This document shows, in pieces, positions 30,710 to 64,000 of a stretch of DNA of 64,000 nucleotides; within the stretch, counting starts at the first letter, position 1, and each line of letters begins with the position of its first letter. This DNA comes from Acanthochromis polyacanthus. Lineage: Eukaryota; Chordata; Actinopteri; Pomacentridae. The stretch spans positions 40,788,027 through 40,852,026 of the forward strand of contig NC_067123.1 in NCBI RefSeq assembly GCF_021347895.1. Direction: 5' to 3'. The position numbers were made by a program, and so were the translations under genes. The notes under the pieces were generated by a model, which did not search any database, was not told where the DNA came from, and worked only from the letters and a program-made list of their open reading frames with translations.

Positions 30710-31609
30710 TTACTGGTATGATCCACCGGTCCAAAGTGGCTTTGACCCAGCAAACGGGTCCAAATGGTTTCCTCCGTCCACCCCTGCTGAGAGTCTGATT
30801 TGGACCGATTTAAAGTTTAACTTCATGACCTCTGACCCTCCAACAGCGTCCTTCCGCTCAGTCATGCCCCCCCAGTAAGTCTGTGGGTGGGTGTGTTGGT
30901 GTCTTGGCGGGGGGCAGCGGTCTGGGTGGAGGCGCTGGTTTGTTTTTGGCCCTCCCGGGGCTCGCCGTCCCCCCGTCGCTGTCGGCTCTGTCCGTCGAGA
31001 TCGGGGGAGGTGGCGGCGGGAGGCGGGGCAGCGACATGGAGCCGTGGTGGTAGTGGAGGTGATGGTGAGGGTTGTGGCGGTGCTGGTGGTGGCCCGGCGC
31101 CACCACCGAGGGGGGATGCGGGAGCAGGAGGACGCAGAGGAGGATGAGGACGGGGGAGGTGGCGGGGGAGGAGTGAGGGTGGCCGGCCGCAGGCTCTGGA
31201 TCCGCCGACACTCCTGGCAGATCCGTACGTGGCTGCAGCTCTGCAGGAAGCTGCGCGGCGGAGCGGGCGGAGCCACCAGCGCCGACGCCGGGGGAGGCGT
31301 GCTGGTGGTGGCGTTGACTCCCAGCGGGTCCTCCAGGAGCCTCTGTGGCCCCGGGCCCAAATCAGGGCCTCCCCCGAGCCCCGCCAACCCGCCCGTCAGC
31401 GGCCCGGTGCCGCTGTACAGTTTGCCGTTGCTGAGGCGCATCTCTCGGACCAGGCGGATGGGCCGAGGGCCGGCTAGGGCCAGACGGGACGGGTGGCGGA
31501 GGACTCCTCCCCCGGCGCTGGTGAGGGGCCGCCGGCGACGAGAGCGGGAACTCTTCTTACAAGAAACGGCGTTTCGAAACTCCGTCAGCATCTCCTGACA
31601 GACGGACAC
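30710..31609 (-). CDS. grik5: GRIK5 terminal exon: cytoplasmic tail
   Basis: Starts [17 protein letters not shown] after acceptor TCTCAG|. GRIK5-typical blocks continue to [10 protein letters not shown], followed by a Pro/Ser-rich stretch. Beyond the six-G run at about 31,110 (plus strand) the open frame to 30,710 becomes Arg/Thr-rich and unlike a conserved tail. Another frame, ending at 30,858, is richer in G/C third positions and reads [20 protein letters not shown]. The exact C-terminus is therefore uncertain. The exon start is certain; the end is 30,710 as read, or about 30,858 with an indel. Confidence 0.8.
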   Translation of the reverse strand: MSVCQEMLTEFRNAVSCKKSSRSRRRRPLTSAGGGVLRHPSRLALAGPRPIRLVREMRLSNGKLYSGTGPLTGGLAGLGGGPDLGPGPQRLLEDPLGVNATTSTPPPASALVAPPAPPRSFLQSCSHVRICQECRRIQSLRPATLTPPPPPPPSSSSSASSCSRIPPRWWRRATTSTATTLTITSTTTTAPCRCPASRRHLPRSRRTEPTATGGRRAPGGPKTNQRLHPDRCPPPRHQHTHPQTYWGGMTERKDAVGGSEVMKLNFKSVQIRLSAGVDGGNHLDPFAGSKPLWTGGSYQ

Positions 31610-34600: not shown

Positions 34601-37600
34601 AGCCGAAACCGAACATACTCGGCTCAACACGTGTGACTTGTTTATGATTGCTAATTAACATAAAATATGCACACACCCGTATGTTTGGTAAGATATAAAC
34701 ATTGGCCCCAAATTTGCTTATTTGAAACGATAAAGTCGTATGAGCCGTTTTAATGAAGCCACAATTACAAAGCTCTTATTGGGGCCGCGTACCGGCCGAA
34801 ATTCAATATGAACGTCTACGACAATGTGACCTCACAAGACCTGATTGATATTTTTATGGATTAGGTGGTTTTATTATATGTTCTTCTCCAGAAACATGGC
34901 TGTACATGCAAATATATATATAAAAAAACATGACCCTGTAAGGGTGAAATAAGTCAGAAATCCTTGGAGTCTTCCAGTCTTTTCTTCAGGAGGAAATGAC
35001 ATCATGTGGAGCAGGTCATGTGATCTGGAATTAACACACTTCCTGGAGAGGAGTTTTTGGAACGAGGAAATTAGTGGGAAGGGATTTAATTTGTTATTTT
35101 CCATATAAAATTTGATATATTGCCAAAAAATAAATATCTGTCCTGATTACCTCAACTTAAAGCTGCTGTCCGGAGTTTGAATCGCAGCGTCTCCTAAAAC
35201 ACTGTTGGTCCCTCCCTCTGATTTCACCCCTTTATTTGTGCACGCGCGCAGTACATGAGAGAAGTGCCCGGAGTGCTGCAGCATCTCGCCTGTTTTGCTG
35301 TTTTCCACTCCTCTACATTTAGTACATTTAGTCAATAATGAAGGAATTACGTTAGAATGCTGTATTGAGTCTAACTTGTCCTAATACCAAAATAACATGA
35401 ATCTGCTAGGACGAACGAGTAAAGTTTCAATATGTGATTACACTCGTGTATCCCTCTGGATGACGTTGTTTATCAAACTTAGTGCATTTACGCGTGTATA
35501 TGTGTTACATTGTTTATTTATTTCTATCTAGAGTTCAGAATTGCATGACTCCTCTGACGAAGAGTATGTCCCAGACGCCCCAACATCTTCCTCCAGAGGT
35601 CGGGCATCTAAACGAAGCCGTCAGGCGGGCTATGGAGGCCGTGGTCGGGGAGCGAGGCGAGCACCCCGAGCCAAAAAACGTCCTGCAGTCTCTTGGCCTG
35701 ACAAGCCGTGGGATTGGTAACTTTTCTGGAAGTTGCTGATCCCTGATGCTCTCTCCTCCACAAGCAAAACAAATGTGCGCGCGGTTGCGTAGTGCGTAGC
35801 TCGCCCACCTCTGCATGGGCTTGCTTGCTGTGCGCGTAACCGTTGATTGACAGCATGACAAAGCTGAAGCTCGAACTTGATTGGTCGGCAGCGACCGGCG
35901 CTTTTTGGAATAACATGGGGGTCTATGAGAGGAAGGCGGAGCTCAGGAATAAATTTTCATATCGCGTTATACTAACTTTATATTATAGTATCGAACTAGA
36001 CTAACACATTTAAGCTTTGTTAAAAAATGATACATAAATTGAAAACAAACGGAAACTCCGGACAGCAGCTTTAATAAAAGAACACAATCCAAACTATTTG
36101 TGAATCAGCTCATTTTATTCTTGTTTAGCTCATTAGTAGGTGGTTGTTATTAAATTCAGACGTTATTTAGTTGACATTTTAGTGATATCCAGTCATTTTT
36201 ATTAATAAGTGATTGTTTCCATCATAAATAATGATGGAATTTGTAAAGACTTGATCATAATGAACATAGAAACTTTTTTTTTTAACAAAAAATAATGCAA
36301 GATATATCCCATGGACATCAAAAGTCCCTCAGTTATAGACTGCCTAATAATACTGGGGAAAAAGTGACTGTACGCACTACAGACATATTAATATCTGCAT
36401 TTCCCCCATATTCTTTTTGCTGAGTGTAAACACCGCCTGCAGTTCAAACGATCAGAGGTTTTCTAATGTGACTGCTGGTTGCAGCTGAGTCTCTAAAAGC
36501 TTCAGAAGTGAGTTTTTTTCTCCACATAATCTGACTAAAGCAAAAGAAGGTTTTTGGCAATTTTTTAAATGTTATGTATACAGAATATAAAAAGTAATTT
36601 AGAATATTATATTAGTTTACAGTTTCTGGCCAAATATTACATCAGTAATCATAAAAGAACAACAGGAGAAAATGACAATGAGCACGTTTTAAAAATCTAT
36701 ACATACTACATATATTTAACTACTTCCATTTTTAATCGATATCCAGACTTGTCAGCTGAACTTCAGGCTGTTTACACAAAGCAGAGAGGAGTTATTGAGT
36801 TTCTGTCTAATGAATGTTCATCACAGCTGAAGCACTCATGACTTTTCATTTGTGACAATCTGTGCAGAGTTTTTTATTTTTCTTACAGGATTTGGTTGGA
36901 ACTGATGGTTTGTTTTAGAGGACATAAAAACATGAAGAGTTCATTTGCAAAAACAGATAACTCCGTTTTGATATTTTCAGAAAACTTTTTTTTATTGTTT
37001 ACTTGAGATAATATCAATCAAAGTGAAGTTGAGTGGCTTTGACTCAGAGAAAATAAATTATTAGTGTTATTATTATTATTGTCTCAAGTAAACAATAAAA
37101 AAAGAGTTTTCTGAAGATGGAGCTACCTGTTTTTACAAATGAACTCTTCACATCTGAATGTTAAGGTAATATGCTTGGTTTTTTTCTGATGAAGTTCAGG
37201 AACTGTTGGAAAGTTTAAAAATCCGATGATTCTTTCCGTCTTTTGTAAAGTCACATTTTATTACTTTTGAAAGACAGGACGCCTTTCACTGCTTTTCAAA
37301 ACAAACCTGCGTCTCTCAAGTGGCCGAGGAATCTGTGAAAGCAGGTTTAAAGAAGTATGTCATCAGAATTATCTCCTGACGGTGTTTCTGGAGACACTGC
37401 AGCTGAACTGTAAAGTGTCAGAATCATTTCAACATTATTTTCAGCCCAGCTCCTGCTGACAGAATGGATGAAACTCCAGCAGCTCTAAACAACAACAGGA
37501 GCTGCAGCACATGAACACAGACAGGAGGACGACCTACTGAGGAGTGGTGGAGGCAGGAGGAGGACGAAGGAGGAGGAGGAGGATGAAGGTTTACCTCGTC

Positions 37601-40600
37601 CGTCTCTGCGGTGCGGCGCGTTGACCACACAAACTCCATGATGGCCACGAACACGGCGATGATGAGGCCGCAGATCAGTACCACGAAGATGCCGCCGATG
37701 TTCTCCATGCCGAGGCCTGAAACACACACAGATCAGATCAATAATCAATCATCTGATCAGCGTTAACATGCTGCTAGCTTCTCGTAGCTTCCTCATTCTA
37801 TTCTACATTCTTGGTGATGAGTCTTTACACGGACTGAACACAGAAACTGATTCTTCAGTTAAATTAACCTCTGCCCTGAGTGCAAACACATCACCTCTTC
37901 CTACAGCGCCCCCTGCTGGATGGAGGCCAGCATTGCAGTTAGCTTTGGTTTGCAAACAGCTAATCTCATCTTGAGGTTATGTGTCCACTAGATCCAGCAG
38001 CTTCCTGCATCCCATTCACTGTCTATGTGGAACGCACCGTGTTGCATGCTGGTCCGGTTGTGTGCGTTTCCCTGCAGCTCATTTGCATAAAGTAGACTCG
38101 ACTTCTACTTTATGCAGATTAGATGTGGCATGTGGAGGTCCGACCATCCCGAAACCTCCATCAGACGTCTAAACTAGCCGTCGGTGGACTAAAACCAGGA
38201 CAGACTCAGCTGCTGCAGATTATTTCTCACCTCAGATTATTTCAGAAATACTTTTCACTGAAGTGTTTTCATAATAAAAGACAAAGTTTGTGCTCCGACT
38301 TTAAATCCAGGAGCAGACAGCTCCCGAGTCGTTTGTCCAATCAGAGGCAGGCTACTGGGCTCAAGGACACGCCCACCAAGACGGAGATTTTCATGAGTGG
38401 ACACGTAGCATAAACGTGCCACATCTGAAAATCACCTGCATGCTCGGCGTCACTACCGGCCGTTAGCTGATTACATGACAGCATTTTCAGCCTGACAGTC
38501 TGACTAATGCATCAGGCCAACACGGCGGTTTGGCTGCAAAGTTTCTGGTTTTTTTGGAAACACTTCAGTATTTCTGAAAGCATCTGAGGTGAGAAATAAG
38601 ATGCTGAATCTGTCCTGGGTTTAGGTCAGCGATGGCTAGTGTAGACGTCTCAGATCTCTGCATGCTGCATTGAATTTGCATAAAGTCGAAGTCGAGTCTA
38701 CTTTATGCAAATGAGCCGTGGCTAAACGCACCGCAACCGGACCAGCATGCAGCATGCAGCTCTCATGACCGCCCACCATGCCTGCGAGTTTCAGATGTGG
38801 CTCGTTTCCATACGGGAAAAACGCATCTAGTTTTATGAATCTGAATCTATCAGTGTGTCCTCCAGGTTGTGCTGTTGGTGTTTGTGCGTGTTCAAGTCGT
38901 GTAATTCAAACTTATAAGTTCACGCTCCCATTCTGATGTTTGATTTGTGTAGGAGGCCGGGCATGTGTGTGTGTTTGTCCACTTCCATCTGGTTTATGTC
39001 CACTGAGCGTTTCCCGCCTTGTGCGTCCTTTTGTTATGTGTTCACAAAGAGAGGAACCTCACTTTGAAAGACAGATGTGTTTTTTTTCTGTCTACTGTAA
39101 AGAATAAACAGATAGGGTTAGGGTTCCTCTTGTACTTTACAGCACGAGTGTGTTAGATTAAAAACTAAAAGTAGGTTCTGCATTCATTATTCTCATCACA
39201 TTCTGCCATAAAGTAGATCTATGACTCAATCAATGACTGATTATCGATCTATGACTCCTGCTGAAAGACGTCATGAACTCTGCTCATAAAATCAGCAGAA
39301 TGGAGACTGACAAGTTCATTTTCTTGATTTGAGAAAAAAAACAAAACTACAAGATAAAAACATTTCTTGTTAGAAAGAACAGAGGTTGACTACCTCCTGT
39401 GATTTCATGGGAAACAGATGGAAACCGAGTGGAGACGGTGACGCAACAACTGAATGCAACGCTGAACAGGTCCATCTATAACTGAGGGACTGTTGAAGCC
39501 ATGGGATGTATCTGCACACATTTTTATTAAAAGTAAAAAAAAGCTAATGGTTTTTATGCTCATTATGATCATGTTTTACAGATTCCATCATTATTTGTTA
39601 TGGAAACAATCACTTATTAATAAATAATGACTGGATATCACTAAAATTTCAACTATGATACAAAAAGTCACGCAATCATACGTTGACTCGTCCAGAACGA
39701 CATGAAATTTTTCCTAAATGACTGAAATGATCCCAAAGACACAAAAATGATCTAAAATAACGAGCAAAGATCCAAAGAATGTCCAAAATTATTTGAAAAC
39801 TGTCCATAATGACTCAAAGTGTCCAAAATCACAGAACATTTGTCCAGATTGACATCTTGATCAATAACTTTCAATTTTGCTCAATTGTACATATAATATT
39901 TAGAGGAATCTCTCTGTAAAAATGCCATGTGGTGTTTGGTAATAGGGTACTGTTTTGGTTATTCGTCATTGTTTCGATTTAAACTTGTAAGTATGGACCA
40001 CGTTTCATATTAGCGCTGCAGCAGCAGAAGTCCATCTGAAGTAAACATCTATAGATCCATAGATCCATAGATCTGCAGTAAACATCCATAGATCCATAGA
40101 TCCATAGATCTGCAGTAAACATCCATAGATCCATAGATCTGCAGTAAACATCTATAGATCCATAGATCTGCAGTAAACATCTATAGATCTACAGTAAACA
40201 TCTATAGATCCATAGATCCATAGATCTGCAGTAAACATCCATAGATCCATAGATCTGCAGTAAACATCTATAGATCCATAGATCTGCAGTAAACATCTAT
40301 AGATCTACAGTAAACATCTATAGATCCATAGATCTGCAGTAAACATCCATAGATCCATAGATCTGCAGTAAACATCTATAGATCCATAGATCTGCAGTAA
40401 ACATCCATAGATCCATAGATCCATAGATCTGCAGTAAACATCCATAGATCCATAGATCTGCAGTAAACATCTATAGATCCATAGATCTGCAGTAAACATC
40501 TATAGATCCATAGATCTGCAGTAAACATCCATAGATCCATAGATCTGCAGTAAACATCCATAGATCCATAGATCTGCAGTAAACATCCATAGATCCATAG

Positions 40601-43600
40601 ATCCATAGATCTGCAGTAAACATCCATAGATCCATAGATCTGCTGTAAACATCTATAGATCCATAGATCCATAGATCTGCAGTAAACATCCATAGATCCA
40701 TAGATCCATAGATCTGCAGTAAACATCCATAGATCCATAGATCTGCTGTAAACATCTATAGATCCATAGATCCATAGATCTGCAGTAAACATCTATAGAT
40801 CCATAGATCTGCAGTAAACATCCATAGATCCATAGATCCATAGATCTGCAGCAGCAGCCTGAGCTCGTCTGCTGGGAAGAGTTGAGGACAGATGAGGGGA
40901 GCCACAGGAGGAGGGCTGTATTTTCAAATTCTGTCATTTCTTTTTGCCTTTTTCCAGCTTTCTGCCTCCTGCAGCTTCATCTCCCTCCTCCCACAGCTTC
41001 CCATGTCACACTGGGAGATTTCTGTAACTTTCCAAAACCAACAATCCAACACTCACACCCACATCTCTCTCCTCTTTTTATTTTCCACCAGAGAAGCCGC
41101 TCTGTAAACGTCTTCCTGGAACTCTGCTCCGCTGTCTCCATATTTAAATGAAATCACCTCCTCCTCTCTCTTTACAAACGCTTCAGATGAAGAAGAAGCC
41201 GACAGTTTAACTGACGCCGTCTCAGCTTATCCTCTGGAGGTTTCACACTTTCTCTCTTTCCACTTCATGTGACACTTGAAGCTCCAGCTCCTCACCAACA
41301 CTTCAGCTCAACTTCACTTCAATCATCGTCTTTTTTCCCCACTTCACTCATATTTAATCAGATCTGCTGATGAAACTGTTGCTGGTTTTAGCACCTGTGT
41401 TCAGACTCACTTCAACTACAATTTCTCTTTGGACTTATTTCAATTGCTAACATGTTGAACTCTCTAAACTTCAAGGCTTCCTTTCTTTGTTTTATTCCTG
41501 CCTCTGTGGGCTCATCATCACCTCTAAGAAAGAACTCAAAAATGTCACAAACACAATTATAATCCCATAAATTATCATCATCTATTCAGTCAGTGTAAAT
41601 GACTCATTCTGCCAGAGAATTCTCACATCCTGTAGTTTTCTTTAGCATCACAATAATGCAGTGATATGCAGATAACACAACGGCTGTTTGAGGCAAAAAC
41701 TAGACAGAAACTACATAAAACCAAATGATAAAAATGTACCAATTTTGATTCTATCTCTGAAGCAGTTTCTGGACGTTTCTTTGCTCCGTTTACATTTTTA
41801 ATCACTGTGATAATTAACAAAACTATGACAGAAAACTCGACTACAACCACACAAAAAGCAGAAAGTACGATAAATAACTAATTATCACTGTGCTAAATAG
41901 ACAAAGGTACCAGTTACAGTTTTATCTCTGAACTCCAAGTAGTTTCTGAGCTTTTTTTCTTCACTGCAATATGAAATCTTTCACCTCCATGGAAACAATA
42001 CAACCACGACTACAAATAGAAAGAACCACAAAGGTGTCTCAGTTCTGCCATAATTCCAGTTATAATGTCAGGTATTACAACACACAGCCTGCAGTTCACC
42101 TGAAAACTCCAACAGCCACGTGACAATAATTCAGAACCACTTATTGACTTTATGGCTGCAACAAGAAGTGCAGATTGTTTTTTTTTTAAATTTCTACATA
42201 ATCTGGTTTGAGCAATGAGTTCATGTTTGGAAAATCTTTCAATAGGATCCATAAAATAAAATGACTTTTAATAAAATATCCAATTGAATGGTGCATCACA
42301 AAAAGAAAGACTGTTTCTATTTCAGTCTCTGGCTTCAATAAAGGGGCAATTTTTTATACAATATAAAATGACAAACAAAAACTCAAATAAACAACGAACA
42401 AAAAGAAATAAATATCCTACTGGTTTTTTCACCCAGTTATCTCCCTAAAGAATAAAAAAAGACACCCAAACACGGATTCTTCCCTACATGCTGTGATCTT
42501 TGTAACCAATCAGGCAGTGGAAAAAGGCTTTTACTTTGAAGGATCTTCCTGACAGACGTTTCCTGTTCTTATGAGGTCACACACTCACTGTTTATTCTCA
42601 GACTTCAGATCTGTCTAAATGGGAGCTTAAAGTCGTGTTTCCTTCATTTCAGAGGTTGTTTCTCCGACTAACACACATTTCCTGAAGATCGATCCAAAAC
42701 TAAACAAAAACAAGTTGTGTTTTTTAATTATTTGTGTTCTGGGGATTTGCCTTCCCACGATGTGACTGTAAACAGATTATTGTTCCCCAGACAGGAGTGA
42801 TGCAGTTTGAACTCCCACCTTCAGATCATTTCAGGCTGACTGTTTCTGTCCTGAAACGCAGAAAGCTGCACACAGACGACAGGAAGCAGCTGATCGATGC
42901 TCCGACGGGACTCATTATGATTGGCTGCTGGAAACACGATGGCAGCGAGAACGTTGATGAAGGTAAAGAGTGGTACTGAACCAAACATGTGGGGTCAATA
43001 ATGCCAAAGGAGAGTTTAGTCGTTATTATTGACGAGCAGAAAGCAGACAGACAGAAAACAAGACGTGGAATGATTCAGGTGTGTAGCTCCCGGTTTTATG
43101 CCTCATCAAACATGAAGACTGAAAACAGCAATTAGGAAAACTATTGATTGTTTTTTAGGAAGCTAGCAGCTCTACAGGTGATACTGTTGATCTGCAGGAT
43201 GATTCATAAAGGAGGAAAAACACACGTGGAAGAAAGAAACAAACTGTAAATAATCCAGCAGGTAGAAAGGCTTGGGAAGTCATTCTGGCTGTATAATGTA
43301 GACACATTATATTTGGCTTTTTAATGTTTAATTAAGGATATTGGTGTGAAAAACAATAAAATGGTCAATTATATAGCTCTGATTATAAAGCTCATTTTAA
43401 CAGTGTAATATTTCAAAATATTATGGAGTGAATTGGAGGGAAGGAGGGAAGGAAGGAAGGAATGAAGGAAGGAAGGAAGGAAGGAAGGAAGGAAGGAAGG
43501 AAGGAAGGAAGGAAGGAAGGAAGGAAGGAAGGAATTTTGGAAGGAATTTTGGAAGGAAGGAAGGAAGGAAGGACGGAAGGAAGGATGGAGGGAAGGAAGG

Positions 43601-46600
43601 AAGGAAGGAATGAAGGAAGGAAGGAAGGAAGAAAAGAAGGAAGGAAGGAAGGAAGAAATGAAGGAAGGAAAGAAGGAAGGAAGGAAGGAAGGAAGGAAGG
43701 AAGGAATGAATGAAGCAGGGAATGAAGGAAGGAAGGAAGAAAGGAAGGAATGAAGGAATTTTGGAAGGCATTTTGGAAGGAAGGAAGGAAGGAAGGAAGG
43801 AAGGAAGGAAGGAAGGAATAAAGGAATTTTGGAAGGAAGGAAGGAAGGAACGAAGGAAGGAAGGAAGGAAGGAAGGAAGGAAGGAAGGAAGGAAGGAATT
43901 TTGGAATTTTGGAAGGAAGGAAGGAAGGAAGGAATTTTGGAAGGAAGGAAGGAAGGAAGGAAGGAAGGAAGGAAGGAAGGAAGGAGGGAACTGGGGAATT
44001 CAAAGTTCCAGGTTCCTGTTTTATTTTTCTACTTGAGACATTTTATTCAGTCTGTTCTTGTAACTCTTCCAGGAGCTAACCGAGAAGCTGGATACCACTC
44101 ATGTTTTGGGTGTGGAGGTTTTTTCTGGTCACCTTTGGCTCGGTGGTCCTCCTCTTTGGGACACTCTCCTCCTTCCCACCAGCGTCTCTTCAGGATCTCC
44201 AGCCGGTTGCTCTCCTGCATCTGGAGGACTCCCAGAGTGATCTCGTCTCTGAACGGAGAACCTGATGAGGGAACAGAAGCAGAGTCATCCTCCAGTTTGT
44301 AAACCTCCACTTGGTTTGAATCATCTGAGCTTCTTTCTAATCTGTTCAAACTGATGTTAATGTCTCATCGCTGATGTTTCTGGTGAAGCCTCACCGTAAC
44401 GCTCTGACCAGAGAGAAATACGCTATCAGGACCTCAGATGTTCATCTGGCACCACAGCAGATTGTACTTTGAATTTCCACCAAAATCACATCAGAGCTGT
44501 CACCATGAGCTCAGGACCTGCATAGTTCGTTTAATCAGACTCTGTTGGAATTATTGATATTTAAAAAAACAGCCCAAGAAAGCTGGAAGAACAAGGTGTC
44601 TGTTTGCCTTCAGGTGGCAGCTCATTTAGGGTTCACAATCAAACAAACAGATCAATTTTATGATAGTCGGTCTGAGATTTCAGCTTGAAACCAAAACATA
44701 AAGTATTCATACGAGCAAAACAAACCATCTGACCTTTAAAGACATGTCATCCTAACAAAGAAGCCAACATCACTCCATTATCAGCCAGAAACTGCAAAAA
44801 CCAACAACAGAATTGTCAGATTGTCAATTTTCTGACGGTTCTTGAAGTAACCATGTGATGTACGGTTCTGTCAGAAATATTCATCAGATCGAGGCTTAAA
44901 ATTGGCATGTTTTCTCAAAAGAACTTCTTCTTCATTTTTTTGTATCAAATCCAGTTAAAAATGCATTTTCTGCTCCTGAGAAGCCGTTCTAACCGACCCG
45001 GCGGTGACCAGCAGTCATGTGACCAAACATTTGGATTAGTGTTTAAGACTAAACGATAAAATAAACTAAATAATACTAAATGGCTCCAAAATAGTAAACA
45101 GAGGAGCGAGTAGCTGGAAGATCCATTCCACATGGAGAGACGTGGCAGAGTTTAATGTGTAGCCTGGTTTAGGTTGTAAAAATGTGAAAACGACAGCAGC
45201 ACGCTGGGCTTATTTGGAGAATCTAAGAAATCCTAAAACACAGCTATGTTTTAATAGTTATATTTAGGTACAAACGTCACTTATTAAGGGTGGAAAAGTT
45301 AGAGAGGATGAGGGAAAAAACCTGAGCAGAGATCATCAGCTGATCCACATTCACAGGTACACGCTGAGCTCTTTTTCAGATTATATTCTAGCAGTGCCTC
45401 TCATTAATATTTCGCCCTCTAAGGCTGCAAATGATCCGACCTCCATCCTCGCCGCCTCTCATCCATTCATCTTCCTATTTATTCCATTAAAAAGTGACAC
45501 TGACTTTCCCAGAGTGACGGACAGCAGGAGTGTTTGAAGGCAGAAGATAAGTGAAGACTTCTTTTACCAGTTTCATCCTTTTATACTACGATCCTGACAT
45601 CTACCTTCTTTTCCTTCTTAACTAAACTGATTTATGACCTTTTTCTGTGGAAATAACTTCTCTCTGAGGCTGGATATCTTGTCTGGCAAGTTTCCAAAGG
45701 AGAGATTAATGTCAGTTTTTTTAAACAAATGAACGGACACCATTTAAAAAGCGAACCTTCTCTCTTCTGATTGTCCTCCTCTGCTTCTGTTTCTTCACCA
45801 CATCGTTTACACTCTGTCATTAATTACATTTCAGGCTTTTAGTTCAGCTCCAGCCTCATTGTAGAGTTGGTCTGAATTCATGTCTTTATTCATTAAAGAT
45901 CAACACTGAAGGTAAAAACTGCATTCCAGGCCTTTTAATTATGAATTTAAGCTTTTATCTTTAGTGTTTTTTGAGTAAAAATGAATTTCTTGTTGTTTAC
46001 TAAGGAAGATTGTTTGACTTGGCTGAAGTAAAGGTCCTTCTTAAAATCATTTTAATGGATACCAGCGACATATCCGTCTATATGCTTCTTTCTGCCTTAA
46101 ATAAGTCTTTTGATCTAATTTTGTGTTCCATAACGTCAGTCAGACTTATTTTAAAACCCACTTACTGCACTGCGATGGCAGCCAACTTTTCTAGTTTAAG
46201 GCGGAAGCGTCCTGATGTCTGGGAAGTTTGGCACAGGTTTGACAGGACGTTTTCACAGAGCTGCCTCTCCTGCTCAGCCTCCCACTAGAACTCAAGCCTC
46301 CTTTAATCCCGTCCTTCCACACCACCCACTCCTGCTGACGGCTTTTTGGGGAAACTGCTCCAGTTAGGAGTCGATGATGGTTCGCTTGGATCTAAACTCA
46401 GAGCCAAGGAGAGGATGTGGCATCAGCTCGAAGTGAAAAGAAGTTCAGCTGGTTTTAATTCCTCAGTGGTTTTTGCACCTGTCCTTCTACAACGGTAAGC
46501 TCATTGGATGTTTCTAATGCTAACAACTACTTGCAGCTGCTTGAATCTTACATTAATAAGAGTCATGAGACATGAAACCAAAATCACTCTTCAGCTTGAT

Positions 46601-52600: not shown

Positions 52601-55600
52601 TGGGCACCATGGGGCCTCTAGCAGCAGCTTGTTTGCCATCTGCTGTTTGTCTTGGCATTAAACGGAGCATATTCACATAAAGCAGAGTCTACTTGCTTTG
52701 GTCGGCTCTGTGACTGAAGCTCACAGCCGGGATCAGCTCGGCGTCAGGCCCTCCACTCACCCAGCGGCATGCCGATGCCGTATCCTTTGGTGTCCAGCAG
52801 CCCGCCGATCTGCGTGAGGTTGCAGTTGAGGCTGCGATAGTACTCGTTCATGGTGCTCTCCATCAGGAAGGCGTACTTGGAGTTGAGGACGCGGGCGATG
52901 CCTTCCTCGGTGCTCTTCACGAACACGCTGGGCTGCTTGGAGTTCATGTAGTTCCACATCCGCTGGTACGTCTGGTACCGCGAGTTCTGGAGGATCAAGA
53001 GGGGAAGAGAGCTGAATGAGGCAGCACTGGAAACAACAGGACTTTACTGTTTACATGGTGATTAAAGACGCAGTTTAACCCTGAAAAACCCACTGATGCA
53101 AAAATACATCAGTTTTATTATTATTTATATCTACATAAATATATATTAGTTTTGCGATTTTTTTAGATTTTTGAGTTTACAGATTATATATACAAATATA
53201 TATATATTTATATATATATTATATATATATATATAAATATGAGTATGTATCTTGACATGCTGCACATATTTTAGCAGCAATGTCGTTTAATATTGAATCC
53301 TCAGAACAACAAAACCTGTCAAAGGGTTTGGATAAAACCTTTTCTTGCCAAAAACACTCCATTTATCAAATCCAGAAGCAGCCCTCAATTGTAGTGCATC
53401 AATGCTCCCCAAAACTGTGCCATCCCAAAAAGATACTCTGCCTTTGCACAGACAGCCTTTTCATTTAAAACCATTAAACAGTGGAATCAGCTCCCAGACG
53501 GTCTGAAGGTGTCTGTGGATTTGAACATTTTTTCTAGGAACATAAAGAAATACTTCCTTGATAGGCAACTGTGTCAGCATCAGTCCACTTAAATTGTTCA
53601 TTGCCTTATTTTATGTAAATTGTAGCATAGCTTTTTAAATGTACATACTGTAAATGGATTAGTAGTATTAATAATATTGTATTTAGTGCCACTGTTAATT
53701 GTAATGTGTATTTTACTTGTGTGACCTGCCAGGGACTGCAGATGGAAAATAGCAATAGCTAAATCTGGTACAAAGCATCTCTTCTTTTCAAGAATAATGC
53801 ATTTGTACATGGTCCCTGACAAATAAACTAATAAATAAACAAATAAATAAATAAATAAATTCCACTAGAAAATCAAACCAAATCCTCGCTTACAATTCAG
53901 ATATTTCATCAACATCTCTCTATCCTACATGTCTCATTTAAAAAAGCACCAAACATAAACCATTTGAATTAATCACATTCTGCAGAAATGAAACTATCCT
54001 GGGCTCCTCCATTAGTGACTCAGCTGCAGCCAACGATCACTGAAGGGAAAATCCAGGACTTTTCAGCTAAATTTCAGTCTGTGAGCAGCACAGCTACAGA
54101 AAACTAATTAAAGCTCTGAGCAGTGAAGCACCTGCAGTGGGTAGAGCCTGATTTCCAGGTCTGGTAACACCTGAGGGAATCTGGAGAAATACTGATGTCA
54201 GATTGGGACTTTTTTGTTTTTATATTAAAGAAATTCAAGTTTTGTTTTTGCCTTTTCAATTATTTAAGCCATTCTAAATTGTCAAACTGCCTCTACTCTG
54301 ACTACAGTATGAAGAAGGACATGGTGGAGCTTCTGGTCTTACTATGAAGAAGGTCATGGTGGAGCCTCTAGTCTTACCATGAAGAAGGTCATGGTGGAGC
54401 TTCTGGTCTTACTATGAAGAAGGACATGGTGGAGCTTCTGGTCTTACCATGAAGAAGGTCATGGTGGAGCCTCTGGTCTTACTATGAAGAAGGTCATGGT
54501 GGAGCTTCTGGTCTTACCATGAAGAAGGTCATGGTGGAGCCTCTGGTCTTACTATGAAGAAGGTCATGGTGGAGCTTCTGGTCTTACCATGAAGAAGGTC
54601 ATGGTGGAGCTTCTGGTCTTACCATGAAGAAGGTCATGGTGGAGCTTCTGGTCTTACCATGAAGAAGGTCATGGTGGAGCTTCTGGTCTTACCATGAAGA
54701 AGGTCATGGTGGAGCTTCTGGTCTTACCATGAAGAAGGTCATGGTGGAGCTTCTGGTCTTACCATGAAGAAGGTCATGGTGGAGCTTCTGGTCTTACCAT
54801 GAAGAAGGTCATGGTGGAGCTTCTGGTCTTACCATGAAGAAGGTCATGGTGGAGCTTCTGGTCTTACCATGAAGAAGGTCATGGTGGAGCTTCTGGTCTT
54901 ACCATGAAGAAGGTCATGGTGGAGCTTCTGGTCTTACCATGAAGAAGGTCATGGTGGAGCTTCTGGTCTTACCATGAAGAAGGTCATGGTGGAGCTTCTG
55001 GTCTTACCATGAAGAAGGTCATGGTGGAGCTTCTGGTCTTACCATGAAGAAGGTCATGGTGGAGCCTCTGGTCTTACCATGAAGAAGGTCATGGTGGAGC
55101 TTCTGGTCTTACCATGAAGAAGGTCATGGTGGAGCTTCTGGTCTTACCATGAAGAAGGTCATGGTGGAGCTTCTAGTCTTACCATGAAGAAGGTCATGGT
55201 GGAGCCTCTGGTCTTACTATAAAGAAGGACATGGTGGAGCCTCTACTCTTACCATGAAGAAGGTCATGGTGGAGCTTCTAGTCTTACTATGAAGAAGGAC
55301 ATGGTGGAGCTTCTGGTCTTACCATGAAGAAGGTCATGGTGGAGCTTCTAGTCTTACCATGAAGAAGGACATGGTGGAGCTTCTGGTCTTACTATGAAGA
55401 AGGACATGGTGGAGCTTCTAGTCTTACCATGAAGAAGGACATGGTGGAGCTTCTGGTCTTACCATGAAGAAGGACATGGTGGAGCTTCTAGTCTTACTAT
55501 GAAGAAGGACATGGTGGAGCTTCTAGTCTTACCATGAAGAAGGACATGGCGGAGCCTCTGGTCTTACCATGAAGAAGGTCATGGTGGAGCCTCCGTGGAT

Positions 55601-58600
55601 GGTGCCGTACTGGATGTTGGTCTGGTCAGCCAGGTCGTCTGGAGACTCGATGGGAGCCTCCATCCTCTGGACGGTGAGGAACGCCGCCAGGTTGGCCGTG
55701 TAGGACGAGATGATGATGAGGGTGAACGCCCACCTGGAGGACCAGAGAAGAAGAAGAAGAGCAGCTTCAACCTTCATTCATCCTGAACGTCTCCCCCTCC
55801 TCCGCCCTGCTTTCATTAAGGCAGCAGACAGATGGAGTTCACTGCAGGAGACGTCAGGAGTTTTAGGTAAAAACCATCAACCTAAACATGAACCCGGGCA
55901 GGACGCCTCGGCTGCACAGGAAATGAGACGGAAGTGATGAGTGAGGGAGTTAGGAGGGAGGAGGGGAGAGGAGAGATGGGGAGGCAGAGCAGGAGAGACA
56001 GAAATGAGACCAAAGAAGATCAGCGAATACAAGAAAAGCAGAATTCATTCTCTGGTGATTCCACTTAATTATAACAACCGAAGCAGAAAATTCCTCGTGG
56101 TGTAAGACCAGCTCTGGAACAACATCAGCTGCAGGTGTCTGAAGGAAAAAGTAATTATGAAATACTTCCATCACATAATTCTTTGTTTTTATGCCACTGT
56201 TGTGAGTGCAGTAAAAACAAGTGAGATATAATGAGCTCTGGAGCTGTTTGCTGTCATTAAACTGAACTTGGTGAACCATCTGCCGAGTGCAGCTTCACAT
56301 TTAACCGACAGACGTGAGAGCGGCAGGAATGTCCTCATCTCACTTTAAAACAGAGCAAATGGAGTAGAAAGATCTGTGTTAGTAGAAAGTTTACTGAGAG
56401 AAAACAGTCTGAAGCCTGCTGGGCTTTAATGCATGATGAAGACAATAAAATAAACACCAAAATGACACCTCAAGTCTCATTTTTGCTCATTTTGTCTCAT
56501 TTCTTTCATTTTTGTCATCTTGTGTCTCGTTTTTGTCGTTTTGTGTCTCGTTTTTGTCATTTTGTGTCTTGTTTCTGTCAACAAAAACACTCGGTTCTAT
56601 TTACAACATCGGGGTTAAGATTCACGTCCATTTTTTGCCTTTCTTTGTCCATCTTATTCCCTCTGTTTCCTCTTTCCCGTTGACTCGTGAGCATCCCGGG
56701 CAGCTTGCTGGCCAATGAGCCTCTCAGACGGACAGACAGACGTCGGTATGTTGCAGCTTGTGCCGCGGCCGTCGTGACTTTTTCTGAGGATAAGCGCCAG
56801 ACGAGGCTGAGAGCTGTCAGAGAAAAGATGCTGATGGCCGCTCCAGTCCCTCCAGTATCACTCCACCATCTGTCCGACTGCAGCTACTGGGACTGAGGGA
56901 GGAAACGTCAGCGGTGGAGGAAGAACTTGGAGCTTTACTGAGCTGAAAGCACCGACAGAACAGTGCAGGAGGAATAATTACACTGTTAAAGCCCTGCATT
57001 TAAAATAGTAAGCACGACAGGCAGTAAATGTGCCTCTGAGGCTGATATAATACATTATATTATTTAAAATGATGCATCAACAGCTACTGCTTTAGACTAC
57101 TGTGGTCCAGTGGTGTCAAAGCTTGGAGTTGTGTCCCTCTGAAGGGTCACCAGGTACATTTATTGTCATTTTGCGTCCAATTTTTGTTACTTTGTGTCTT
57201 GTTTTTGTCATCTCGTGTCTAATTTTTTTCATTTTGTGTCTCATTATTGTCATGTTGTGTCTTGTTTTTGCCATTTTGTGTCTTGTTTTTGGTGAGTTGG
57301 GCTCTTACTTTCAGAATGAGATCAGTCCATTCCTACAGATTACCTGTGAACACTCTAATGTGTTTTGTTCAAACAACTTTGGACTGGTCCATCTGATTCC
57401 TAATGAATTATTAATTCAATGAGCCTTTTTAAAACATCCTGGTGTGAAGCTCAGGTGTGGAACATGTTTAAAATCCACCATTTATCACAGTTTCTGGTTC
57501 TATTCAACGGCTTAATGTTTTAATCTAAACGTGTTCAAACAGAGAAGAGGAGCCTTGAAGGTCCAGGTGTCTGTACTGGTGTAAATCTACCAACCAGACT
57601 CCGCTGACGCAGCGGGTGGACAGCGCCCGGGGCATGATCTCTGAGCCCTGCTGCATGAAGCCGCCCACTGGGAACCACAGGCTGTTCCCCAGTGTGTACT
57701 GGTTCTCCAGGATGTCCCGCCGCTCCCGCAGACATGGGTGAGGGTTGTACCACTCGTAGGGACTGAGCCTGGAGGGTGAGGGAGAAAGAACACCGTTAAT
57801 AAACAGTCCAGCAGCTGTCTGCGTTTCATTTACCGCTAAACTGACTTTTATGGAGCTGTTTGACCTCTGCAGCGCTCTACACAACACTCTGCTGCTGAGG
57901 ACTCTTCTATTAAGTGGATTTTGTGAAAACATATTTCATGTCGAGCGCTCAGGTAGGAAAAAGGTGAGAAAGGCGGAAAAAAAGAAACGGTGTTTAGATG
58001 CTCGACTGGAGAGTTTCAGTCATTTTAGTGTTTGTGTGAACGACAAAATTACAGGTAAAGAGAGAGAGGAAGATGACAGAGAGATGTTCTCTACTGAGAT
58101 GAAACTTCAAGAACCAACAGAATGAAGCAGGACCAGAGCAGCAGGTTCAGGTTATTCTGTCTTCTCCAAACACCGGGCAGAGAGACTTACAGCGCCTTTA
58201 TTTAATCCTGCTGACAGGTTTTAAAGGCAAACAACCATCAGTATTGTCATATTGGCCGTTTATCAGAGCCATGAACTCTAAAAACAGAAACAACTGTCTG
58301 CTTTTCTACTTCACAACAGTCCTTGAACTACTCACCTGTTTCCATACACAGCCTGCTGGTAAAGTCAGATGTTCTGTAGCGTCACTGTTGGTCACAGTTG
58401 AGTCACTAACGGCTTTATGGATGCAAGAAGGAATGCAATGTTTTTTGTGTGCATTTTTAAATTTTCATTTTTTTTCCAATATCTCTTTATTCTACATGTT
58501 TGAAGTACAGGAAGTCCTCCACTGACATCAACCAAATCCATTCTGTGCATCACGACATCCGTCAGTTCTTCATAAAGTCATGAATACCAACGACTTCCAT

Positions 58601-59274
58601 GCATGTATGAATCATTTTACTAGAAGATAACAGAATATTGTAACGGACTGATAATGTTGTTGAGGTTTCAATGTTTATTGTTCAGTTCCAGATTTACCTG
58701 ATGTCAGTGAACGTGCCATATTTAGTTAGCTCACCTCCATTCTGTACCTCGTTTTTGTTGTTTTGTGTCTCATTTAAATATTTTTTGTTTTTAATATACT
58801 TTTTTTTTTAATGATTTCTGACATTCTAACTCTGTTATTCCACACAGCAGGCCTGGTCGTGGTGCTTCCATGTACATAAAAGACCTCATATTGCAGTAAA
58901 AATGAGCCCACAAACACCCAGAAACTGCTTGGAGTTCAGAAGGTTCACGTCTAAAACAGAATATATTCTCTGTGTAGTTACTGAAGTGCATGACTGACTA
59001 AAGGTTGTTTATCAGCGTGAACAGAGAGCGTTGAGTCGAAAAAAGGTCCTTTGTCCGTCGTCCCGAAGTGACACACAGACAAAACGCCTCCACAATGCAG
59101 AACTGAGCTCACTGTGATGCTTCAGCTATAATTAGAAAGACGAGCATGGAGGCAGGTGTGTTACCTGGCGGCCAGGAAGAGGACGCAGCTGACGGCGAGG
59201 TAAGCCAACAGCATGAAGAGCCAGACAGCCGGAGAGAACGGGTCCAGGAAGGAGAAGTAGCCGGGCTTACGACC
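30710..59274 (-). CDS. grik5: Glutamate receptor, ionotropic, kainate 5 (3' part, seven exons)
   Basis: Exons at 59274-59165, 57768-57595, 55733-55568, 52986-52761, 44261-44133, 37716-37595 and 31609-30710 join in phase with AG/GT borders into 608 codons plus stop. In order they give M1 ([16 protein letters not shown]), the M2 pore loop with Gln at the Q/R site (VGGFMQQGS), M3 with SYTANLAAF, the S2 ligand-binding lobe ([18 protein letters not shown]), the pre-M4 segment ([22 protein letters not shown]), M4 ([15 protein letters not shown]) and a cytoplasmic tail. The tail ([45 protein letters not shown]) matches GRIK5 (KA2/GluK5) rather than GRIK4. GluK5 co-assembles with GluK1-3 into postsynaptic and presynaptic kainate channels; the Arg cluster is an ER-retention signal in mammals. 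The ATD, S1 and promoter lie beyond base 64,000. Confidence 0.95.
31681..32511. mobile_element. MITE with TACGTGTCCAC inverted ends, copy 1
   Basis: The left end TACGTGTCCACTAGATCCGC and the reverse complement of the right end differ at one of 20 bases. It is interrupted by a hAT-like element (31,720-32,056). Internal landmarks (CTTGGTGGGCGTGTCCTTGA, ACCGGACCAGCATGCAG) recur in the copies at 38.0-38.8 kb. No protein is encoded. Confidence 0.8.
31720..32056. mobile_element. Nested hAT-like MITE
   Basis: Ends TAGGGCTGGAC and GATCAGCCCTT are imperfect inverted repeats flanked by the 8-bp direct repeats GTGAACAC and GTAAACAC (one mismatch), the hAT target-site size. The interior has GAATATTCGG / CCGAATATTC palindromes and a C13 run. 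Confidence 0.75.
32512..35156. other. GRIK5 intron with repeat fragments
   Basis: Holds a second copy of the fold-back family of 17.6 kb (33,286-33,705; GCACTCAGAGAGTGCAGACC to GCAGAGGTAATAAC). It also holds a repeat segment at 34,437-34,495 (AACACCACATGGCATTTTAG) that recurs inverted at 39,886-39,945. No gene seen. Confidence 0.5.
35157..36074. mobile_element. TTAA-flanked DNA transposon with coding exon (Kolobok/piggyBac-like)
   Basis: Perfect 18-bp inverted ends AGCTGCTGTCCGGAGTTT (35,161 and, inverted, ending 36,070) are flanked by TTAA on both sides. The interior is GC-richer than its surroundings and holds one exon-like open segment (35,532-35,720). The TTAA target fits Kolobok or piggyBac; the ends are not CCY, which favours the former. 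Confidence 0.8.
35532..35720 (+). CDS. Last exon of a transposon-encoded protein (fragment)
   Basis: The acceptor TTTCTATCTAG| is followed by 62 codons and TAA. The segment is acidic ([17 protein letters not shown]), then basic and Gly/Arg-rich ([20 protein letters not shown]), ending PDKPWDW. Upstream exons are missing, so it is a remnant in a deleted element. I do not recognise the parent protein. Confidence 0.5.
   Translation, partial: SSELHDSSDEEYVPDAPTSSSRGRASKRSRQAGYGGRGRGARRAPRAKKRPAVSWPDKPWDW
36170..36340. repeat. Left arm of a distant inverted duplication
   Basis: Contains GATATCCAGTCATTTTTATT, AAGTGATTGTTTCCAT and CCATGGACATC. It matches 39,474-39,655 in inverse orientation. Both arms lie in GRIK5 introns either side of the M4 exon. 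Confidence 0.7.
36934..37149. mobile_element. Hairpin-forming MITE
   Basis: Arms of about 78 bases (from GAAGAGTTCATTTGCAAAAA to GTTTACTTGAGATAAT, and the inverse at 37,072-37,149) enclose a loop of about 60 bases. The arms are nearly identical, so a transcript would fold into one long stem. Confidence 0.8.
37595..37716 (-). CDS. grik5: GRIK5 exon: M4
   Basis: 122 nt. [20 protein letters not shown] to [16 protein letters not shown]. Acceptor TTTCAG|. Confidence 0.96.
37978..38407. mobile_element. TACGTGTCCAC MITE, copy 2
   Basis: About 430 bp, inverse orientation to copy 1. Ends TATGTGTCCACTAGATCC and AGTGGACACGTA. Uninterrupted. Confidence 0.8.
38519..38830. mobile_element. TACGTGTCCAC MITE, copy 3 (truncated)
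   Basis: Shares AACACGGCGGT, AGTATTTCTGAAAGCAT and CGCAACCGGACCAGCATGCA with copy 1 but lacks clean ends. It lies inverted to copy 2 only about 110 bases away, so the two can form a large hairpin. Confidence 0.7.
38831..40040. other. GRIK5 intron, mostly unassigned
   Basis: Apart from the inverted arms noted at 39,474-39,655 and 39,886-39,945, nothing is recognised. A short telomere-like AGGGTTAGGGTT at about 39,114 is only two units. Confidence 0.4.
39474..39655. repeat. Right arm of the distant inverted duplication
   Basis: Inverse copy of 36,170-36,340 (GCCATGGGATGTAT, GGAAACAATCACTTATTAAT, TGACTGGATATCACTAAAAT). Confidence 0.7.
40041..40850. repeat. 29/38-bp minisatellite
   Basis: Units of CCATAGATCTGCAGTAAACAT plus one, two or three CCATAGAT steps give 20, 29 or 38-base lengths, about 27 units in all. 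Each unit has AGATCT and CTGCAG. Open frames across it ([10 protein letters not shown]) are by-products. Confidence 0.95.
40851..43432. other. GRIK5 intron, no supported feature
   Basis: Open frames here (for example 42,734-42,979, plus) have no recognisable domain. Two weakly similar blocks at about 41,690 and 41,880 (TTTTATCTCTGAA..AGTTTCTGA) suggest an old tandem duplication. Confidence 0.4.
43433..43988. repeat. (GGAA)n microsatellite, about 555 bp
   Basis: GGAA repeats interrupted about eight times by GGAATTTT, plus GGAC, GAAA and TGAA variants. It lies in the intron about 145 bases downstream of the GRIK5 exon at 44,133. Each GGAA is an ETS-core match. Confidence 0.98.
44133..44261 (-). 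CDS. grik5: GRIK5 exon: end of S2
   Basis: 129 nt. [20 protein letters not shown] to [11 protein letters not shown] long GGAA microsatellite starts about 140 bases downstream of its donor. Confidence 0.96.
44262..47088. other. GRIK5 intron, no supported feature
   Basis: No repeat boundary or exon was recognised in this part of the 8.5-kb intron. Confidence 0.4.
47089..48520. mobile_element. TA-flanked transposon, copy 2 (interrupted)
   Basis: The left part (47,089-47,230; TTCTGTTCCTACTGATCTAC) and right part (48,165-48,520; CCATGGAGACA, GTAAACCGAGGACCTCCTG then TA) match copy 1 at 26.2-28.0 kb. The middle is occupied by a PIF/Harbinger remnant. Confidence 0.75.
47334..48148 (+). mobile_element. 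PIF/Harbinger remnant nested in copy 2
   Basis: Ends AAGGATACCTTCAGACTGCA and the inverse of TGCAGTCTGAATGCAGCCTT are inverted repeats. Inside, two plus-strand frames give pieces like the N-terminus of HARBI1-type proteins: SHSQEWW, then [20 protein letters not shown] and TYICERL. Frame breaks and loss of the catalytic part show it is dead. Confidence 0.7.
48521..49798. other. GRIK5 intron, no supported feature
   Basis: A CpG-richer patch at 49,430-49,560 stands out in base composition, but no exon or motif supports a call. Confidence 0.35.
49799..51555. mobile_element. 1.7-kb fold-back element
   Basis: Outer arms 49,799-50,125 and 51,243-51,555 are inverse copies (GGGATCAGTTTTACCTCAGG; AGGGTGAAATGCAGCAGTAG). 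Inner arms 50,150-50,340 and 50,690-50,900 continue the match (AACCAGAAGAGGGA; GCCCGCTGTTTTC). A central spacer of about 350 bases is left. The right arm is split by a hAT-like insertion. No transposase is seen. Confidence 0.8.
50917..51239. mobile_element. hAT-like insertion inside the fold-back arm
   Basis: The right arm is interrupted exactly here relative to the left arm. The insert begins TAGGGATGTGGGAG and ends CAATGATTCCCAGCCTA. Flanks GCCTGCTG and CTCTGCTG match at 6 of 8 bases, consistent with an old 8-bp target duplication. Confidence 0.6.
51556..52760. other. GRIK5 intron, no supported feature
   Basis: Nothing recognised on either strand; short open frames only. Confidence 0.4.
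52761..52986 (-). CDS. grik5: GRIK5 exon: S2 lobe
   Basis: 226 nt. [20 protein letters not shown] to GYGIGMPL, including the ligand Glu in [11 protein letters not shown]. Acceptor CCTCCAG|, donor G|GTGAGT. Confidence 0.96.
53170..53240. repeat. AT-rich microsatellite
   Basis: TATATATATTATATAT-type imperfect repeat just 5' of the LINE fragment. Confidence 0.9.
53390..53865 (+). mobile_element. LINE 3' end (L2-like), second copy
   Basis: The plus-strand frame [33 protein letters not shown] ends in TAA. The 3' UTR contains GGGACTGCAGATGGAAAATA and it finishes in an (AAATA)n tail at about 53,820-53,862. It is the same family as 1,741-2,360, opposite strand to GRIK5. Confidence 0.8.
53866..54305. 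other. GRIK5 intron, no supported feature
   Basis: Unique-looking DNA between the LINE tail and the splice-donor array. Confidence 0.4.
54306..55565 (-). repeat. 35-bp minisatellite made from the GRIK5 exon end and its splice donor
   Basis: Exactly 36 units of 35 bases (1,260 bp, no indels by coordinate arithmetic) directly abut the exon at 55,568. On the gene strand each unit reads GTAAGACCA then GAAGCTCCACCATGACC and TTCTTCATG. It therefore contains nine intron bases with a full GTAAGA donor and 26 bases copied from the exon end (STMTFFM). Outer units vary (CAT/TAT before the donor, GTC/GAC, CTT/CCT), while about 17 central units are nearly identical, so the array grew recently from its middle. 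Confidence 0.97.
55568..55733 (-). CDS. grik5: GRIK5 exon: M3 and start of S2
   Basis: 166 nt. Begins [19 protein letters not shown], carries the SYTANLAAF gate motif and ends [15 protein letters not shown] in phase 0. The Ser/Thr of GGSTMTF contact the ligand in this receptor family. Its 3' end is fused to an array of 36 copies of itself (54,306-55,565). Confidence 0.96.
55734..57594. other. GRIK5 intron with TTTTGTGTCTCG repeat patches
   Basis: At 56,470-56,590 and 57,160-57,300 a unit of about 21 bases (TTTTGTCATTTTGTGTCTCG) is repeated a few times. The same family occurs at 58,745, 59,635-59,955 and 63,905-63,990. Nothing else recognised. Confidence 0.7.
57595..57768 (-). CDS. grik5: GRIK5 exon: M2 pore loop
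   Basis: 174 nt. Encodes [12 protein letters not shown] to VSGVW, including [17 protein letters not shown]. The Q/R-site codon is CAG (Gln), as usual for GRIK5. Donor CTG|GTTGGT is the weakest of the set. Confidence 0.95.
57769..59164. other. GRIK5 intron with transposon fragment
   Basis: 58,508-58,738 is the left third of the TA-flanked transposon family (copy 3; CATGCATGTATGAATCATTT, TGATGTCAGTGAACGTGCCA). The rest is unassigned. Confidence 0.65.
59165..59274 (-). CDS. grik5: GRIK5 exon: pre-M1 and M1
   Basis: 110 nt. Starts [18 protein letters not shown] and ends inside the Arg of AAR (AG|G). Acceptor TTTCAG|, donor CAG|GTAA. Confidence 0.95.
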
Positions 59275-59634: not shown

Positions 59635-59955
59635 CGTATCTCATTTTGTCATCTTGTGTCTCATTTTTGTCATTTCGTGTCTTGTTTTTGCCATCTGGTG
59701 CCTCGTTTTTGATTTGTGTCTCATTGTTGTTACCTTGTACCTCGTTTTTGCCGTCTTGTGTCTCATTGTTGTCGTTTTGTGTCTCGTTTTTGCCGTCTTG
59801 TGTCTCGTTTTTGCCGTATTGAGTCTCGTTTTTGCCATCTTGTGTCCCGTTTTGTGTCTCATTTTTGCCGTCTTGTGTCTCGTTTTTGCCGTCTTGTGTC
59901 TCGTTTTGTGTCTCATTTTTGCCGTCTTGTGTTTCATTGCGGTCATTTTGTCCCA
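59635..59955. repeat. 21-bp-type minisatellite (TTTTGCCGTCTTGTGTCTCG)
   Basis: About 15 imperfect copies, the largest of five dispersed patches of this family in the last 8 kb, all in the same orientation. Confidence 0.9.
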
Positions 59956-63172: not shown

Positions 63173-64000
63173 ACTATGTACATAATGCTGTTTGTACTTG
63201 CAGACATGATTGTTTTGTGTGCTCAGCTGATCTGGGAGTTGTTCTCAGATTGTGTCCTCTCTGCTTTGTGTGACGTTCAGATCCGTGCTCGTTGCTCGTG
63301 CACGTTTGTGTTGTCTTTAAAGGTAGTGATGTAATGCACGTGAAACTTCAATGAAATCAGGGCAGATGCATGTTTTCCCCCACATGTTTAGTTTGCAGCT
63401 CTCTGAGCCCGCGGCTGGTGCTTTATCTCGGTGGTTTTCAGGGTGAGCCAAACACTCTGGATCTTGTTTTTTGTTTCCAGAGCGGTCCAGGCTATCTGGA
63501 TTTTCCATTATTTGATACAATACTACTTACACAATGTCTCATATTAGCCAAGAAAAACAGGTTTTTAGCACGATAAAATGTCATGTTTTTACATGTTTCT
63601 CACCACAAAGCGCTGACAGTAGACATTTATTTAAATAATTATAATAATAATCTAGTAATACTAAAACCATCATACTGGGACACTGTAGAGTTAAATGATT
63701 GGTTAAAATATGTGCTTTCTGCCCCTAAACCAGGGTGTCCACCATGAGGCCCATGGACCAAAAGTGGTCCTCCAGAGGGTCCAATCCGGCCCTCAAAGTG
63801 TAAAAACTACAGAGAAGACATTAACTGCAGATTGTAAATTAGTAAAACTATAAATTTAAAATTATTTCTAGACCATGACAAGTTGTTTTGAAGACTGGAT
63901 TGTTCATTGTTCTTTTGTCGTTCTGTGTCTTGTTTTTGTTGTTTTTGTCTGATTTTTATTGTGTGCCTGATATTTTTGTTGTTGTGTATTTCCTTTTTTG
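63173..64000. other. Window end, no supported gene
   Basis: Unassigned DNA, finishing in another TTTTGTCGTTCTGTGTCTTG patch (63,905-63,990). Confidence 0.4.

Follow-up and report, generated by a model that had tools for sequence, protein, structure and literature searches.

A minisatellite made of the exon end and splice donor of GRIK5 in the fish Acanthochromis polyacanthus

Repeats that carry splice sites, and the GRIK5 array

In intron 18 of human ABCA7, a variable number tandem repeat (VNTR) starts at the donor of the exon and repeats that donor in an off-frame unit of 25 bp (PMC5954066). The ABCA7 repeat varies from approximately 12 to 427 units, and retention of one unit accounts for 2 ± 1% of the transcripts, independent of VNTR length and with the canonical donor in use. 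Cycloheximide increased the transcripts that carry a stop, and longer VNTRs were accompanied by more skipping of exon 19 and by lower expression (PMC5954066). Here, we describe an array of similar architecture in the kainate receptor subunit gene GRIK5 of Acanthochromis polyacanthus, located on the minus strand of a 64,000-nucleotide stretch of contig NC_067123.1 (positions 40,788,027 to 40,852,026; hereafter the window, whose own numbering is used throughout). The array is contiguous with a coding exon, takes in its authentic donor, and presents 35 further copies of that donor inside the following intron.

The likeness to ABCA7 extends to several features: both are exon-contiguous minisatellites that include the donor, both offer a donor GT in every unit, the unit is off-frame in both, and use of the next donor leads to a stop. 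They differ in that the ABCA7 repeat is said to start at the GT, whereas the GRIK5 repeat also spans 26 coding bases; moreover, length polymorphism, unit retention, exon skipping and expression effects have been proven in ABCA7, whereas the GRIK5 array is known from one assembly. In human duplicated genes, exon-intron boundaries can carry minisatellites of about 30 bp that are able to alter splicing (PMC2812944), and the GRIK5 array shares their scale and position; however, those repeats create new introns or give rise to variable exons within segmental duplications, whereas the GRIK5 copies all sit in an intron that already existed, in a gene that is conserved. UBC carries tandem dual-specific AGGT sites that serve as both donor and acceptor in an in-frame unit (PMC10809524). 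One splice site per tandem unit is common to the two, but the GRIK5 consensus unit contains no AGGT, its donors being ATG/GT or ATA/GT (the slash marks the splice junction), and its length of 35 bp is not a multiple of three, so that it departs from the UBC type on both counts. The exon 10 donor of tau is covered by a stem-loop, disruption of which changes splicing (PMC2604894); a stem-loop across exon end and donor is also found in GRIK5, where it is only predicted, and is repeated. Lastly, a VNTR in intron 6 of TERT has been linked to splicing (PMC11830802).

A preceding interpretation of the same DNA, made from the letters alone (the sequence-only reading), had stated that no example was described in this gene. 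A literature search did not contradict this, GRIK5 being named in none of the first 15 of 993 papers listed, although the same architecture had already been described in human ABCA7 (PMC5954066). A report on tandem repeats in Nothobranchius (PMC2688266) and one further paper (PMC8724738) added nothing to the comparison. Thus, the kind of object is known. New elements seem to be the gene and lineage that host it, the hairpin-bearing stretch of 26 coding bases taken into the unit, and how many of the donors are identical.

Anatomy of the array, reading frames and fish relatives

The minus strand of the window carries the 3' part of the gene, with exon limits read from the sequence. The protein joined from these exons had its best PDB match in GluK5 (7ks0, 553 bits), followed by GluK2 (396 bits); it was 91% identical to mammalian GRIK5 and 82-83% to GRIK4 entries, and matched a GRIK5-type model of Amphiprion ocellaris at 454 of 458 aligned residues. 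By sequence, therefore, the gene is GRIK5, as had been proposed earlier, and not GRIK4 or another kainate subunit. The exon that borders the array (55568..55733, minus strand, 166 bp, placed by translation and junctions) encodes WAFTL...GGSTMTFFM and scored 96 bits to PDB GluK5. Its 3' end reads GGC TCC ACC ATG ACC TTC TTC ATG (STMTFFM), followed by GTAAGA, and the intron that begins there extends for 2581 bp to an acceptor at 52986.

With the exon's own copy included, Tandem Repeats Finder (TRF) placed the minisatellite at 54309..55590 (minus strand; period 35, 36.6 copies, 95% matches, 0% indels). The repeat extends 26 bases into the exon, each unit thus consisting of 26 exon and 9 intron bases, which supports the earlier proposal that the repeat originated from the exon boundary, is continuous with the exon end and keeps a constant 35-bp period. 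Read in transcript sense, 36 GTAAGA sites are found, and all 35 spacings between them are exactly 35 bp. The first is the authentic donor (GT at 55566..55567, G at 55567, minus strand), and the remaining 35 are copies (54337..55532, minus strand) with the G of the GT moving in steps of 35 from 55532 to 54342. The repeated donors had thus been recognized correctly in the sequence-only reading, although its count of 36 decoys and 37 sites was one too high. ATG precedes GTAAGA in 28 of the 36 sites and ATA in eight, the two forms having been named in the sequence-only reading; since the authentic donor is of the ATG type, 27 ATG and eight ATA copies remain. These 27 copies are identical to the true donor at positions -3 to +6, while all 24 compared exon-side bases are matched by only four of the 35 copies. 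GTAAGA is present in every full unit (36/36) and missing from the most distal partial unit, which belongs to a degenerate array end past the last donor (54309..54336, minus strand, limits approximate). In total, the array occupies 1259 of the 2581 intron bases.

Variation within the unit is confined to seven of the 35 columns and defines 13 unit types, with variants at both edges of the array and alternating types at the distal edge. Seventeen of the 36 units are identical to the consensus, including a central run of 13, and a run of this length occurred in none of 10,000 permutations; the homogeneous center noticed previously is therefore real in this assembly and looks recent, as had been suggested. 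Constraint on the copied donors was considered and rejected, since GTAAGA, although it contains none of the seven variable columns, would do so by chance at P 0.23. A comparison with Rfam returned no match at the gathering score.

The copied donors add 35, 70 and further multiples of 35 bases to the message. When each of the 36 donors was joined in silico to the next exon (52761..52986, minus strand, ending in GMPLG, placed by translation), the frame remained open with the first donor only. For the second donor, the stop arises at the junction itself, and donors 3 to 36 all run into the TAA contained in the first copied donor; hence, each of the 35 copied-donor read-outs ends at residue 66 or 67, in one of two adjacent codons. 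This bears out the earlier claim of an off-frame unit with a stop beyond every copied donor, and, since all copied donors give a stop, the receptor can be obtained only from the first one. By the usual 50-nt rule, a stop lying sufficiently far ahead of a downstream junction triggers nonsense-mediated decay. From the stops found here to the 3' boundary of the next exon there are approximately 228 nt or more, and additional exons follow, so that decay of the copied-donor messages is expected.

The corresponding junction was then compared in other fishes. FFM is directly joined to NSRYQ in all 120 fish GRIK5 proteins listed (best 120 of 4832), including the Amphiprion models P0121 and P0183, which are of the paralogue type of the window; all Amphiprion models listed have this junction. 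The coding end bordering the array is thus intact and the same as in these relatives. The possibility that the array had rewritten the exon end, placing Met where mammals have Gln, was ruled out, Met being present in the same 120 of 120 proteins. A second protein search, aimed at extensions into the intron (best 120 of 462), added 92 proteins, and in the pooled sets 201 of 212 showed FFM/NSRYQ. Among the other 11, two (P0282 and P0325) join differently, and nine run on as FFMV and then end. The latter (P0241-P0248 except P0246, P0256 and P0290) represent nine species, from Myripristis, Cyclopterus, Haplochromis, Salarias, Neolamprologus, Neogobius, Poecilia, Cyprinus and Nothobranchius; by paralogue motif alone, five are of the other type (NIEYGT) and four of the window's type (NIQYGT). 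It is to be noted that nine models are not a rate, as the search targeted such extensions. They may reflect a retained intron, transcripts with another 3' end, or a habit of annotation. The array reading of the window's first copy was absent from all nine, some of which contribute peptides only a few residues long; as judged from these sequences, its absence excludes the same array beside the donor, but not repeats deeper in the intron. An array-derived product was likewise found in no listed fish protein. Overall, the array probably arose recently and is probably restricted to this lineage.

Donor quality and the competing explanations

Donor and U1 scores, computed with a human donor matrix and a U1 5' end, are meaningful only relative to each other. 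On this scale, the true donor and its 27 identical copies scored alike at 8.30 bits in the donor scoring that had been suggested as a check, compared with 6.86, 4.41 and 7.38 bits for three further donors in GRIK5. Of the 3779 GTs on the minus strand that lie outside the array, 21 reached at least the score of ATG/GTAAGA (0.33 per kb), whereas the array holds 27 such copies in 1259 bp; in the remainder of the same intron, none of 69 GTs reached it. Twelve tandem arrays, picked from the 46 TRF rows of the window, were also scanned on both strands. The GRIK5 array contained its 27 donor-grade sites on the transcribed strand only, and none was found in the other 23 strand scans, although two of the 11 other arrays hold one or two sites above 6 bits. 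That the GRIK5 array carries strong donors follows from its origin in the end of an exon.

The exon end and donor are also predicted to fold into a hairpin (55566..55585, minus strand) with a perfect 7-bp stem (ACCATGA with TCATGGT) and a 6-nt loop, at a minimum free energy of -7.5 kcal/mol. The predicted hairpin is kept in the ATG copies (-7.5 kcal/mol, or -6.4 kcal/mol with a T variant) and largely lost in the ATA copies (-0.9 or 0 kcal/mol). In a sample of 1500 GT sites, the fold of positions -21 to +6 at the true donor fell in the lowest 1.7%. Nonetheless, codon choice tuned to the hairpin was rejected, and no selection for the hairpin is claimed, because 48 of 384 synonymous forms were equally or more stable and the donor region of the preceding exon folds tighter (-9.0 vs. 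-8.3). Neither does the hairpin mask the copies while sparing the true donor, since the latter is equally closed: the nine bases of the donor had a predicted openness of 0.00016 for the true donor, a median of 0.00023 for the ATG copies, and 0.062 for the ATA copies. U1 pairing of the true donor and the 27 identical copies was -8.0 kcal/mol. When pairing and opening were combined, the predicted net U1 affinities became nearly equal, namely, -2.6 kcal/mol for the true donor, -2.9 for the ATG copies, and -2.8 for the ATA copies.

Considering these results together, we favor, with a probability of roughly 0.7, a donor-anchored minisatellite of the ABCA7 kind, in which the exon-proximal donor dominates, a minor leak is degraded, and the array is for the most part tolerated. 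A 35-bp stretch over the exon end would have undergone tandem duplication and further multiplication, for which slippage or unequal exchange presumably accounts. A short-repeat seed of that first duplication was considered as well, but would look the same as the repeat itself. The first donor would be chosen by its position, through exon definition from the upstream acceptor, rather than by its strength, and a small leak to the following donor or donors would bring a stop into the message, to be cleared by nonsense-mediated decay. This explanation is supported by the intact coding end, shared with the listed relatives, by the exact period of an array continuous with the exon, by the stop after each copied donor, and by variation in the units that shows no sign of constraint on GTAAGA. 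By analogy, the low and length-independent unit retention in ABCA7 favors dominance of the first donor over retention of single units, but the behavior of ABCA7 does not speak for neutrality. If the length of the array matters at all, an effect on inclusion of the downstream exon or on expression, as in ABCA7, would be likelier than an effect of decoy dose.

Two lines of evidence weigh against this explanation. The true donor has no sequence advantage, as its nine bases, its U1 pairing and its predicted masking are the same as those of 27 copies, and a larger leak is therefore possible. Since none of these measures of strength favors the true donor, position or exon sequence farther upstream must be responsible should the first donor prevail in vivo. 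In addition, the alternative ABCA7 transcripts together exceeded the canonical one in some brain samples, and expression drops with length (PMC5954066); thus, an array of this kind need not be neutral.

Alternatively, the copies may compete with the true donor for U1 and the acceptor and divert transcripts to decay, so that the unit number would set GRIK5 output. The near-equal predicted U1 affinities, the 27 copies that match at -3 to +6, the eight ATA copies that are weaker but more open, the donor score above those of the three other donors of the gene, and the stop after every copied donor all agree with such control. However, unit retention in ABCA7 is independent of length (PMC5954066), which speaks against simple competition by copy number, and the listed fish proteins contain no array-derived product, though decay would mask one; we therefore consider this explanation unlikely. 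Its more elaborate form is likewise considered unlikely: there, an exon end with its donor hairpin would have been amplified into a copy-number dial. Strong but hidden ATG donors and weak but open ATA donors, equal in their predicted net affinity for U1, would share it over 1.26 kb of intron, set the amount of receptor message, and differ between individuals. Because of the close precedent in ABCA7, passive tolerance is more likely than tuning.

U1 is also known to protect transcripts against premature polyadenylation. A large number of U1 sites near the 5' end of the intron could accordingly guard it against early 3'-end formation or retention. The nine fish models in UniRef, each from a different species, that end just inside this intron (FFMV...), where the array adds 35 U1 sites, would fit this idea; fish GRIK5 may even be prone in general to early ending here. 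We regard such a shield as improbable, considering that the nine models came from a targeted search with no control junction and are possibly annotation artefacts, and that the whole intron has a single AATAAA (at 2449 of 2581) and a single ATTAAA (at 2277), both far downstream of the array. An error of assembly, by which a real array would have a wrong length or a wrongly identical center, or would have been inflated, appears just as improbable; 13 identical consecutive units are hard to size, and the frame break at a C-run in the last exon suggests that base errors exist, but 13 ordered unit types, their alternation at the distal edge and the exact period are unlike a simple artefact, even if the unit number itself is uncertain. 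It is most improbable that each of the eight ATA units serves as acceptor and donor in overlap, giving stepwise intron removal or 34-nt microexons: they end in CTT(C/T)ATAG behind a stretch of 75-81% pyrimidine and have largely lost the hairpin, but lack the AGGT core of dual-specific sites.

The locus allows the choice of the spliceosome among many near-identical donors to be tested in a natural setting, with 36 sites, 28 of them sharing the same nine bases, and the first alone productive. Nearly exclusive use of the first donor would mean that position rules; otherwise, a brain receptor gene would bear a fast-mutating brake. The array further suggests that vertebrates other than humans acquire donor-anchored VNTRs like the one described in ABCA7, and a systematic search for them is conceivable.

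Remaining exons and the surrounding window

The other GRIK5 exons, all on the minus strand, were placed as follows. Upstream of the array exon in transcript sense lie an exon at about 59165-59274 and the immediately preceding one at 57595..57768, which ends in CVSGVW as judged from translation and junctions. Downstream of 52761..52986 are exons at 44133-44261 and 37595-37716, and the last exon at about 30858-31609; the limits of these, and of the 59165-59274 exon, were read from the sequence. In the last exon, at 31000-31200, the frame breaks at a C-run and continues in another frame after CSRIPP, which is either a base error or a genuine change.

The region is rich in tandem repeats. Long minisatellites occupy 5948-6902 (11-bp unit), 9685-10591 (10-bp), 26504-27596 (33-bp) and 40055-40851 (29-bp), and a 21-bp TTTTTGTCATTTTGTGTCTCG-like repeat recurs in separate arrays at 56474-56580, 57158-57291, 59639-59938 and 63913-63962, in the manner of a dispersed family. 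Within the intron of the array, an open frame on the plus strand (53395-53592) resembles, by eye, the end of a reverse transcriptase of a long interspersed nuclear element. Two further open frames, also named by eye, lie on the minus strand: one of 303 amino acids at 8323-9234, which is C2H2 zinc-finger-like, and one of 179 amino acids at 4069-4608, which is immunoglobulin-like.

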